A program made the translations under genes and the position numbers. DNA of 64,000 nt from Vibrio lentus (GTDB lineage Bacteria; Pseudomonadota; Gammaproteobacteria; Enterobacterales; Vibrionaceae), in assembly GCF_030409755.1 (NCBI RefSeq), contig NZ_JAUFQE010000001.1:372001-436000 (forward strand), in the 5' to 3' direction. A model generated the notes under the pieces. It worked only from the letters and a program-made list of their open reading frames with translations, was not told the origin of the DNA and searched no databases. This document shows positions 4,510 to 16,817 of this stretch, in pieces; the first letter of the stretch is position 1; each line of letters starts with the position of its first letter.

Positions 4510-5328
4510 TTAGAAAGGCATCGCGACACGCTGGACATATTGGATTTCAATCGCACCTTGGTATTCAAACATTTCAACCGATGCACTCAAATGTTTGGCT
4601 TTAGTTGCCGAAGGGCTTTCTGTCGGAACTGTTGTTTCAAGTGACTTGATTGGTACCTTGAAACCTAACATGTCGTAGTTTTCATCAAACCATTGCCAAC
4701 TCACATTGGTGTCCGGGCAGTTGTCGATCACCTTGGGTGGCGTTACCACAATGCGCGGGTCGTTGAGTTTGCTTTCGAGTGTTAGCCATCGCTTGTTATC
4801 GTCTAAAGCAACAATAATAGGGTAGTTGTTCGAACCTATCGTTAACTGATAAACACCCGATTCCGGTTTGATGAACATCTCACTGGTTTCGATCTCTTGA
4901 TATTCGACATCTGAATTGAGTTGCCCGTCGATAACCACTTTCCCCTGAGGTGAAACCAAAGAGATACGCTGTGTTTGATCGTCTACTGCTTTATTCAACT
5001 GCTCCGCAGACACTTTAATCTGATAGCCTTGTGATGAAAGACCGTGGCGTTTGATAAAGCTGACTTGGATGTGATTGTTGGGTGCAGCGCTTTGTTCAAG
5101 AGTGGTTCCACATTGAGTTCGACTTAGTATTTCTTGTTTAACGGGCAGCCAAAGCTGACTATTAAGCTCTGCCTGATCAAGCGCGATTTGAAGTTCTTGC
5201 CATGCCACTTGCGGCTGATTATCGAGCAGCGATTGATAGGTGTGTTGCAATGGCGTGTTTGTAAACCAAGCCGCATTACACGCAAAGGGTAATGTGCAGA
5301 ACAGTGCTGTTAGAGAGCTTACTTTCAT
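4510..5328 (-). CDS. DUF2861-like periplasmic protein of the VxrAB/VbrKR operon
   Basis: 272-residue protein with a signal peptide (residues 1-19, cleavage near CNA|AW). No catalytic motif is evident; the middle (residues ~95-190) reads as beta-rich with conserved-looking Trp and Pro. It matches what I recall as the DUF2861 family found next to the Vxr kinase in vibrios. Its ATG overlaps the response regulator stop codon by 4 bases (ATGA), so it is translationally coupled and in the same operon. Context suggests an accessory envelope protein for the sensory system, possibly the counterpart of V. cholerae VxrC, D or E; which one cannot be settled here. Confidence 0.75.
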   Translation of the reverse strand: MKVSSLTALFCTLPFACNAAWFTNTPLQHTYQSLLDNQPQVAWQELQIALDQAELNSQLWLPVKQEILSRTQCGTTLEQSAAPNNHIQVSFIKRHGLSSQGYQIKVSAEQLNKAVDDQTQRISLVSPQGKVVIDGQLNSDVEYQEIETSEMFIKPESGVYQLTIGSNNYPIIVALDDNKRWLTLESKLNDPRIVVTPPKVIDNCPDTNVSWQWFDENYDMLGFKVPIKSLETTVPTESPSATKAKHLSASVEMFEYQGAIEIQYVQRVAMPF

Positions 5329-15558: not shown

Positions 15559-15632
15559 CGTTTTTTTGGCTGTAGTAAGACAATGTGTAAATAATGGTTG
15601 TGACTCACGGCCATTATTGATACGTTTTTAGG

Positions 15633-15686
15633 ATGAAATTTACTTCCGCTTCAACTTCAATTTTCTTTTGGTGGTGCTCTATCTAG
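15633..15686 (+). CDS. Putative trpS2 leader peptide with tandem Trp codons
   Basis: A 17-codon ORF reading MKFTSASTSIFFWWCSI and ending in TAG. Trp is the rarest residue and is encoded by adjacent TGG TGG at 15669-15674, three codons plus one before the stop, exactly where stalling would matter. It precedes mutually exclusive hairpins and a terminator just before a tryptophanyl-tRNA synthetase gene. The weak point is the ribosome binding site: AGG directly abuts the ATG with no normal spacing. No other in-frame start exists after the TGA at 15618. The role as a tryptophan-sensing leader peptide is inference from this architecture. Confidence 0.72.
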   Translation: MKFTSASTSIFFWWCSI

Positions 15687-15780
15687 AGCAGCACGGAATA
15701 CTCACATTCTTTAGCTGCTGGAAGGTAGTTAAGAATGTCACCAAGAATGTCGTCTCTTTTTATCTCCAGTAGCCTTTTTT
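15675..15780 (+). promoter_or_regulatory. Probable tryptophan transcription attenuator
   Basis: Alternative RNA structures readable by eye. 1:2 hairpin, TGCTCT (15675-15680) with AGAGCA (15685-15690), overlapping the end of the leader ORF. 2:3 antiterminator, AGCAGC (15687-15692) with GCTGCT (15714-15719). 3:4 terminator, GCTGCTGGA (15714-15722) with TCCAGTAGC (15765-15773), nine pairs including one G-U, followed by C and six T (15775-15780). Segments 2 and 3 are shared, so the structures exclude one another as in classical amino-acid attenuators: stalling at the Trp codons would free segment 2 for 2:3 pairing and permit readthrough into trpS2. Confidence 0.72.
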
Positions 15781-15791
15781 ACTTGGAGATA
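15761..15791 (+). promoter_or_regulatory. Hairpin sequestering the trpS2 ribosome binding site
   Basis: TATCTCCA (15761-15768) pairs perfectly with TGGAGATA (15784-15791), burying the GGAG Shine-Dalgarno sequence (15785-15788) that serves the ATG at 15795. The left arm overlaps the right arm of the terminator (15765-15773), so terminator formation and ribosome-site occlusion compete. Confidence 0.6.
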
Positions 15792-15794
15792 ACT

Positions 15795-16817
15795 ATGAAA
15801 ACCACTCTAGATACCAAAAAACCTGAAATTATTTTAACGGGTGACCGCGCGACAGGACCACTGCATCTTGGTCATTATGTCGGGTCATTACAGCAACGCG
15901 TGTCTCTTCAGAACCATCACGACCAAACAATACTGGTCGCTGACATGCAGGGCCTTACCGACAATGCTCATAACCCAGCAAAGGTTTCGTCCAACATTCT
16001 TAATGTCGTCGCTGACTATCTTGCGGTAGGTATCGATCCGACAAAGACAACCATTTGTCTCCAATCACAGCTGCCAGCATTGGCTGAGCTCACTATGTTC
16101 TACAGCAACCTTGTTTCTATTGCTCGCTTGGAACGCAATCCCACTGTTAAAAGCGAAATTCAGAATAAGGAATTTGGCCGTTCAATCCCGGCTGGCTTTC
16201 TGACTTACCCCATCTCACAAGCGGCTGATATCACGGCGTTTAACGCAACCTTGATTCCTGTTGGCGATGATCAATTGCCAATGCTAGAACAGACCAACGA
16301 GATCGTGAGAAAAGTAAACTCACTCGCGGGCAAGCCCATCTTAAATGAGTGTAAACCGCTGCTTAGCAATGCTTCACGACTTCCGAGTACTGACGGAAAA
16401 AGTAAGATGTCTAAATCAATGGGCAACGCTATTAACCTTGGCGCGACAGAAAAAGAGATTCGTGCAGCAGTCAAATCTATGTATACCGACCCAAATCATC
16501 TACGAATCGAAGATCCGGGCCAAGTAGAAGCGAACATCGTGTTTACTTATCTTGATGCTTTTCACACTGACGCTGACTATGTCAATGAACTAAAAGATCA
16601 CTACCGCAGAGGCGGGTTAGGTGATGGTCAAACTAAGAAGGTGTTGGAAGAATGCCTACAGGATATGATTCGACCGATTAGAAAGCGCCGAACTGAACTG
16701 TTAGAAGACAAGGCTCAGCTCATTGATATCTTACGTAAAGGCACGCAGGTATCGAGAGAAAGAACAGCAAATGTATTATTTGATGTAAAGGGCGTGTTTG
16801 GGCTGAATATACTCTGA
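15795..16817 (+). CDS. trpS: Tryptophan--tRNA ligase, auxiliary type (TrpRS II-like)
   Basis: Class I aminoacyl-tRNA synthetase that charges tRNA-Trp. 340 residues from the start at 15795 (GGAGA 5 bases upstream); an in-frame ATG at 15735 would add 20 residues and has GGAAGG upstream, so a longer product is possible. HIGH-type signature HLGH (TGPLHLGHYVGSL) and KMSKS (SKMSKSMGN) are both present. The opening GDRATGPLHLGHYVGSL resembles the Gram-positive-like form rather than the E. coli form (SGELTIGNYMGAL), so this is probably a second, acquired TrpRS alongside a housekeeping copy elsewhere. Such auxiliary enzymes often give indolmycin resistance. Preceded by a probable Trp attenuator. Confidence 0.93.
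   Translation: MKTTLDTKKPEIILTGDRATGPLHLGHYVGSLQQRVSLQNHHDQTILVADMQGLTDNAHNPAKVSSNILNVVADYLAVGIDPTKTTICLQSQLPALAELTMFYSNLVSIARLERNPTVKSEIQNKEFGRSIPAGFLTYPISQAADITAFNATLIPVGDDQLPMLEQTNEIVRKVNSLAGKPILNECKPLLSNASRLPSTDGKSKMSKSMGNAINLGATEKEIRAAVKSMYTDPNHLRIEDPGQVEANIVFTYLDAFHTDADYVNELKDHYRRGGLGDGQTKKVLEECLQDMIRPIRKRRTELLEDKAQLIDILRKGTQVSRERTANVLFDVKGVFGLNIL

Follow-up and report, generated by a model that had tools for sequence, protein, structure and literature searches.

The leader of trpS2, the gene for a second tryptophanyl-tRNA synthetase (TrpRS) in Vibrio lentus, is almost certainly a Trp-codon attenuator. It probably acts mainly on the translation of trpS2, through a leaderless sensor ORF, a helix (P5) that would cover the Shine-Dalgarno (SD) sequence of trpS2 in the OFF state, and a competing helix (P4) that would form in the ON state. 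Most likely, the spare TrpRS is made only when charged tryptophan tRNA is scarce.

The window analysed here is a stretch of 64,000 nucleotides (positions 372,001 to 436,000 of the forward strand of contig NZ_JAUFQE010000001.1). The structured stretch lies between the leader ORF and trpS2. The features are listed below, with the helices given as the pairings of segments 1, 2, 3, 3', 4, and 5.

15598..15603, forward strand: -35 element TTGTGA, 17 nt before the -10 element (from the sequence and the alignment on the leader ATG)
15618..15626, forward strand: extended -10 element, TG-A-TACGTT, with the end of the hexamer at -7 from the A of the leader ATG
15633..15686, forward strand: leader ORF MKFTSASTSIFFWWCSI*, 17 codons, predicted to be leaderless (from the sequence)
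15669..15674, forward strand: tandem Trp codons TGG TGG (from the sequence; kept in relatives)
15667..15698, forward strand: P1 (1:2), 15667-15680 with 15685-15698; its loop holds the beginning of the stop codon
15687..15719, forward strand: P2 (2:3), 15687-15692 with 15714-15719 plus 15695-15699 with 15706-15710
15704..15738, forward strand: P3 (3:3'), a hairpin with a GGAA loop, 15704-15719 with 15724-15738
15714..15773, forward strand: P4 (3:4), 15714-15722 with 15765-15773; uses one P3 arm and part of the loop
15760..15792, forward strand: P5 (4:5), 15760-15771 with 15780-15792; covers the SD sequence of trpS2
15775..15780, forward strand: six T after P4, not conserved
15785..15789, forward strand: SD sequence GGAGA of trpS2 (from the sequence)
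15795..16817, forward strand: trpS2, second tryptophanyl-tRNA synthetase, 340 aa (PDB matches, TIGR00233)

The initial annotation had described a 17-codon ORF with tandem TGG codons before trpS2, and all of this was read in the sequence (15633-15686 and 15669-15674), the codons being ATG AAA TTT ... TTT TGG TGG TGC TCT ATC TAG. The predicted fold of 15633-15800 had a free energy of -46.7 kcal/mol, compared with -32.9 kcal/mol (sd 3.8) for dinucleotide shuffles (z -3.6), and 0 of 200 shuffles folded as well. The trpS2 product matched TIGR00233 with 227 bits (cut-off 177), contained the HLGH and KMSKS signature motifs, and was of the TrpRS-II type. Its best PDB matches were 1yi8 (357.6 bits) and 2a4m (356.9 bits; labelled TrpRS II), both of which we take to be from Deinococcus. 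A canonical-type trpS, 29% identical to trpS2, was present on another contig of the same genome, and TGGTGG was absent from the 320 nt upstream of it. For the second TrpRS of S. griseus, indolmycin resistance is reported in a passage of PMC6804068. At 15735-15794 of the window, the GGAAGG of 3:3' is followed by an in-frame upstream ATG, from which TrpS2 would be 20 residues longer; a comparable upstream start was missing in most of 41 relative loci.

Subsequently, the distribution of the gene and the leader was examined. In an evenly taken sample of 295 genomes of the order, trpS2 (criterion, E ≤ 1e-110) was found in 46 genomes, and within the window's own genus in 7 of 21, so its presence was counted as patchy. 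The initial annotation had made its reading depend on the conservation of the Trp codons in relatives, and the tandem-TGG leader was indeed kept at 44 of the 46 trpS2 loci. At one of the two exceptions (L107), from a small genome (1.7 Mb, 79% complete), the leader was gone; at the other (L108), the ORF seen by eye resembled the leader and had one Trp codon only (..IGWRAYFKRR). Upstream of trpS2 in L107, TCTCC and an SD-like stretch were kept with no leader ORF, a natural loss. Among named genomes, the best 80 of 124 trpS2-like loci were examined and 40 carried a Trp-Trp leader of the same kind, namely 37 of L001-L038, two from Paraburkholderia, and one from a MAG labelled Chloroflexi. L009, the contig of which begins 219 nt upstream of the match, was the sole member of L001-L038 without the leader; by eye, its positions 1-219 seem unrelated, perhaps an insertion. 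No leader of the same kind was found in Cupriavidus (L039-L042) or at more distant loci among these best 80 of 124. The 40 loci left out were thus L009, L039-L042, L044, L045, L047-L054, and L056-L080; L056 had the two Trp codons within a 55-residue GTG ORF.

The comparisons below were based on 82 loci chosen for TGGTGG in a short ORF, 34 of which remained below 90% identity. From the 45 order-sample loci besides the window, L102, L107, L108, and L118 stood outside this set; L118 had the two Trp codons in a longer ORF, and the genome of L102 has a leader (L179). Leader starts were re-set by hand in L001, L043, L046, L106, and L125. The 82 loci encoded 68 distinct leader peptides of 12-20 residues, which were variable apart from the two Trp residues and, at the P1-paired positions behind them, R, C, or H and S. 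The stop codon began 12, 15, or 18 nt past the start of the first Trp codon.

The leader was also found in beta-proteobacteria and on plasmid records. Matches to trpS2 were obtained in 88 plasmid records; in the nine stretches that were read, the leader was present in seven (Escherichia, Klebsiella, Salmonella, Variovorax, Burkholderia, Proteus, and Salinivibrio) and absent from those of Acinetobacter and Rhizobium. In the E. coli plasmid record L130, the leader-trpS stretch lies between IS26 and IS1 transposase genes (203-907 and 4767-4990), flanks that hint at a trace of how the stretch may have moved. When 369 genomes from the class were searched with a sequence pattern, there were two matches, both within coding sequence by eye; these negatives say little because the pattern misses the window's own leader, which has TGC after the Trp codons.

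Next, the region upstream of the leader ORF was aligned with the leader ATG as the anchor. The extended -10 element was seen in the 53 dereplicated sequences, and a hexamer TAnnnT ended exactly at -7 in 39 of them (500 shuffles, mean 1.9, maximum 7) and at -8 to -10 in a further nine. At positions -35, -34, and -33 from the ATG, T, T, and G were found in 45, 40, and 38 of the 53 sequences, respectively. In sigma-70 promoters, transcription starts about 7 nt after the -10 hexamer. The fixed distance of the hexamer from the leader ATG therefore predicts a transcription start at the A of the ATG or no more than about three bases away, and it is highly likely, as judged from the promoter position, that the leader ORF is leaderless with its ATG as the transcription start. 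Consistently, an SD-like 4-mer preceded the leader start at only 2 of the 82 loci, even with a wider motif set than for trpS2, and an SD-like motif preceded the trpS2 start at 78 of the 82, a count that is biased because the starts had been picked partly for such a motif. The initial annotation had named the poor ribosome binding site of the leader as its main doubt; the predicted leaderless start would answer it.

Two further observations were made around the promoter. In the window, an inverted repeat (AATAATGG...CCATTATT, 15590-15618) lies between the upstream gene and the leader and overlaps the -35 element; its pattern is terminator-like and by eye was not evident in relatives. In the S. 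enterica record that contains the leader (L133), positions 1-129 of the minus strand, opposite to the leader, matched Rfam isrQ (E 3.7e-30). This element starts at the first codon of the trpS2 leader ORF and runs antisense to the leader promoter. isrQ is a Salmonella sRNA candidate, with 0 and 0 reads in its row of a table in PMC2515195.

P1, P3, and P5 appeared in the predicted fold of 15633-15800; P2 was read from the sequence. Across the loci, the loop of the P3 hairpin was small and often GGAA. Segment 2 is contested by P1 and P2, and segment 3 by P2, P3, and P4. P4 and P5 overlapped by 5-16 nt in segment 4 at all 82 loci, and P5 over the SD sequence thus excludes P4 at 82 of 82, as expected of a translational attenuator. 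As expected of a ribosome-mediated attenuator, the locus combines a conserved Trp-codon ORF with mutually exclusive helices, the first of which overlaps the Trp codons.

Covariation was assessed by a partner-swap test, in which duplex energies of cognate and swapped partners were compared for 21 representatives below 80% identity. Of 20000 permutations, 0, 15, 0, 0, and 7 were as good as the cognate arrangement for P1, P2, P3, P4, and P5, respectively; these counts are indications and not probabilities, since the representatives are still related. Compared with 60 shuffled sets, the cognate-over-swapped excess gave z values of 6.1, 3.3, 12.6, 10.3, and 3.1 for P1-P5, and the ten other segment pairings gave -1.7 to 0.9. 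Only this excess was used because the raw energies of the decoys 1:3 and 1:5 also beat the shuffles (z 2.8 and 3.1). P5 had the weakest support of the five, its excess of 1.38 being no greater than that of the best of the 60 shuffles, which it equalled. Pairing of the 3' segment with 4 or 5 as a missing link was unsupported in the same test (z 0.2 for both). Furthermore, in anchored tests with a fixed register, 0 of 20000 permutations were as good for P1 and P3 (34 sequences) and for P4 (28 of 34 usable), and 1, 0, and 2 of 20000 were as good for the outer pairs of P5 over 4, 5, and 6 positions (28 of 34 usable); these sets, too, contain relatives, and the counts are again indications. Left to itself, RNAalifold selected four basal P1 pairs and five P4 pairs; the P4 pairs had changes on both sides in 10, 0, 4, 13, and 1 of the 34 sequences, and the outermost pair was broken in nine.

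These tests support the five predicted helices, 2:3 and 4:5 least strongly. The pairings 1:2, 2:3, and 3:4 of the initial annotation are present in the sequence and all three co-vary in relatives; the 3:3' hairpin and the SD-covering 4:5 helix, both kept in relatives, had been missed, as had the promoter at 15598-15603/15618-15626. Support from the comparison of loci thus extends to the ORF with its Trp codons, to where the promoter lies, and to five helices that exclude one another.

A covariance model was built from 34 leaders and run on the 295 genomes. At E ≤ 1e-6 it gave 44 matches, all directly upstream of trpS2, many of them by construction since these loci had been used in building the model. 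Of these, 43 preceded the trpS2 genes of the order sample and one (in genome G190) preceded a trpS2 with a broken frame. At this last locus (L174), the leader is intact and the trpS2 frame stops about 180 codons in, which may be decay or an assembly error. A further 35 matches were weaker than 1e-6, one of which (G281, 1.3e-4) also preceded trpS2. Nine weak matches were read (L169-L173 and L175-L178); seven looked like chance, and L169 and L170 were set apart. These two, from two genomes of one genus (family f9; E about 5e-5), have an ORF with two Trp codons (..GWWRT), and the gene after it resembles a membrane transporter; this may be a Trp attenuator that controls a transporter, or chance. 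Within the 295-genome sample, the leader element is tied to trpS2. In the window and the 11 relatives scanned, no Rfam family reached its gathering score on the strand of the leader and the models of trp operon attenuators gave no match; sub-threshold matches were to mir-2, mt-tmRNA, and mir-15, taken as chance, and two weak ones lay away from the leader. Taken together, the 44 of 46 leaders, the co-variation of the pairings, and the position tied to trpS2 give good support to the earlier reading of a Trp-codon attenuator on a second TrpRS.

From these elements we infer the following order of events, with P4 as the ON state and shortage of charged tryptophan tRNA as the inducing condition. Ribosomes would load on a leaderless mRNA that starts at the leader ATG. 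With ample charged tryptophan tRNA, the ribosome would complete the peptide, and segment 2 would be covered or, after release, held in P1; the local hairpin P3 would then form, and segment 4, finding 3 taken, would close on the SD sequence of trpS2 (P5, OFF). With scarce charged tRNA, the ribosome would stall at the Trp codons and cover segment 1, so that 2 would pair with the emerging 3 (P2). P3 would thereby be delayed, and segment 4 could pair with the loop and arm of 3 that are left open (P4, ON) before the SD sequence is made. Sequestration of the SD sequence is likely to be the main OFF device. P4 should be the ON state because P5 hides the SD sequence and P4 excludes P5, and this assignment is favoured, with somewhat more reserve than the scheme as a whole. 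Starvation would lead to P4 since the loop and the 3' arm are open to 4 in the 2:3 state, as opposed to the loop only in the 3:3' state.

The scheme was then compared with folding calculations. At equilibrium, the mean unpaired probability of the SD core was 0.18 with a stalled ribosome, 0.16 with the ribosome at the stop codon, and 0.14 with no ribosome. The SD sequence stayed paired in most loci whatever the ribosome position; in 9 of the 82 loci the stalled value exceeded the stop value by 0.05, and in 5 it was lower. The clearest fit was L026 (0.69 stalled, 0.08 at the stop), and few loci behaved in this way. The free-energy gap of ON over OFF was nearly equal in the two states (2.61 kcal/mol stalled and 2.79 kcal/mol at the stop). 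With a stall, it was lower than at the stop in 11, higher in 8, and equal in 2 of the 21 representatives, and lower in 47 and higher in 25 of the 82 loci; compared with no ribosome, it was lower in 31 and higher in 42 of the 82. The switch is thus not recovered by equilibrium folding; the ON step is proposed on kinetic grounds, and the switch, if real, would be kinetic.

When folding was followed stage by stage as segment 3 emerges, the stall gave at least two more 2:3 pairs than no ribosome in 19 of the 21 representatives. The gain over the ribosome at the stop was seen in 21 of 21, and follows in part from the set-up of the calculation, which masks segment 2 in that state. With segment 4 out and 5 not, P4 was fuller at the stop than in the stalled state (11.3 vs 9.0 pairs), and had at least five pairs in 19 of 21 representatives at the stop vs 15 of 21 stalled. 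In these calculations, the step from the stall to 2:3 appears to be supported and the P4 step does not, and the excess of P4 in the stop state speaks against the model in its simplest form.

The initial annotation had taken 3:4 as a terminator with six T. The T-run is present in the window (15775-15780); as a general output the terminator was not supported, given a tail in 6 of 21 representatives and the conservation of an SD-covering helix that excludes 3:4. Specifically, at least five U in the eight positions after P4 were found in 6 of 21 representatives and 35 of 82 loci, the latter including the majority of the Vibrio loci and several from Photobacterium and of the Alteromonas type. The tail had fewer than five of eight in the Moritella loci and in genomes taken for Aeromonas and enterobacteria. 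After P3, at least five U of eight occurred in 3 of 21 representatives and 29 of 82 loci (e.g. L002), and the window has one. A T-run after 3:4 as a conserved terminator was rejected as a general feature, and a U-tract terminator is not a family feature after either P4 (6/21) or P3 (3/21). Classical transcription attenuation, with 3:4 and the T-run as an intrinsic terminator and 2:3 as the antiterminator, would explain why P4 in the window runs straight into six T and why 35 of 82 loci have such a tail. It is nevertheless decidedly unlikely: the tail is found in only 6 of 21 representatives, P4 would have to form across a gap against the local hairpin P3, and 3:4 would be OFF though it frees the SD sequence by excluding P5, a helix that co-varies. 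The mutual exclusion of 2:3 and 3:3', both co-varying, would also suit a hybrid in which 3:3' is a terminator in some lineages, 2:3 its antiterminator, and 4:5 a second, translational gate. U-rich tails after P3 in 29 of 82 loci such as L002, and a GC-rich inner stem followed by TTGTTTTC, seen by eye in loci such as L110, are in line with it; with at least five U of eight in only 3 of 21 representatives, and one in the window, we consider the hybrid unlikely.

Two other explanations concern what is sensed. TnaC senses free tryptophan through an arrest peptide. A short Trp-containing leader peptide at a Trp-related locus might act in the same way instead of by codon sensing, but the 82 loci have 68 distinct peptides that vary save for the two Trp residues and the R/C/H-S where P1 pairs. 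This variability apart from the Trp residues and the P1-constrained ones points to the codons, and an arrest peptide is extremely improbable. The high degree of structure of the leader, and the fact that its translation is a prediction, would also agree with a conserved fold that answers another signal (a protein, a metabolite, or a small RNA) with the ORF incidental. However, the ORF with its start, the two Trp codons, and a stop codon 12-18 nt past the first of them survive wide divergence, no Rfam family reached its gathering score on the strand of the leader, and isrQ lies on the opposite strand, which makes this explanation very improbable. The Trp-codon attenuator acting mainly on translation is the reading that we favour.

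Published Salmonella data bear on this reading. In a passage of PMC2805695, trpS2 (STM4508) is up 2-fold in biofilm, together with trpD, trpC, trpB, and trpA (5-, 11-, 8-, and 7-fold, respectively), and according to a passage of PMC12506092, trpS2 is down in a tolC mutant together with mtr and trpABCDE. These mRNA levels fit Trp-dependent control, without locating where the control acts. The tolerance of trpS to transposon insertions in Salmonella, for which TrpS2 is the suggested cause in a passage of PMC3487940, fits a working spare enzyme. If the scheme is true, a spare synthetase in Gram-negative bacteria is under translational codon-sensing control, a working leader without a ribosome binding site is explained, and the parallel expression of trpS2 and trp genes reported for Salmonella gains an explanation. 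The 82 loci (34 below 90% identity) would then be a natural set for the study of helix signalling from a ribosome to a distant start. Plasmid records of Escherichia, Klebsiella, Burkholderia, and Variovorax contain the gene together with its leader, which suggests a way for a spare TrpRS to be transferred along with the element that controls it.

Enterobacterial trpL has tandem Trp codons and alternative 1:2, 2:3, and 3:4 pairings, controls biosynthesis, and ends in a true terminator. The trpS2 leader resembles it in the tandem codons and the three alternatives, and differs in its target and in the terminator. In the ermC and cat leaders, the SD sequence of the next gene is hidden in a helix, which is rearranged when a ribosome stalls on the leader; the predicted SD-hiding helix is similar here, whereas the signal in ermC and cat is an antibiotic-arrested ribosome and not a starved codon. 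The E. coli pheST attenuator, with Phe codons and a transcription terminator, is likewise a case of synthetase operon attenuation in gamma-proteobacteria, from which the trpS2 leader differs in both of these traits.

In its passages on synthetases, PMC1262725 names pheST in gamma-proteobacteria as an attenuated case. Streptomyces trpS genes carry attenuators as well, according to passages on S. avermitilis trpS2 (PMC1262725, which calls its attenuators classical) and on S. lividans trpL2-trpS (PMC8079986). They share with the present leader a leader peptide with one or more Trp codons upstream of a TrpRS gene, and PMC8079986 describes trpL2 as leaderless and reports two hairpins, no stretch enriched in uridine having been found. 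In contrast to the loci studied here, Streptomyces belongs to another phylum, the trpL2 peptide has a single W (MMTRTCTQLWRAA), and no SD-sequestering scheme was encountered in the passages of PMC1262725 and PMC8079986 on these attenuators. The RNA of Sinorhizobium trpL (rnTrpL) also starts at the ATG of its small ORF, as stated in a passage of PMC7298713; it differs in lying upstream of trpE(G), in acting by transcription attenuation, and in belonging to alpha-proteobacteria. With Streptomyces trpS and pheST in print, the synthetase in place of a biosynthetic operon, which the initial annotation had pointed out, is not new in itself. The open-access literature searched gave no description of a translational, leaderless, five-helix trpS leader from gamma- or beta-proteobacteria. 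It is conceivable, as a tentative proposal, that the leaders form an undescribed and widely shared class of translational Trp attenuators in these two groups, with a leaderless sensor, a five-helix relay to the SD sequence, and an inducible spare-TrpRS cassette that answers TrpRS inhibition or Trp starvation. The synthetase as an attenuator target, with one leaderless case in Streptomyces, is known already; the proposed translational, leaderless five-helix version would be the new part.
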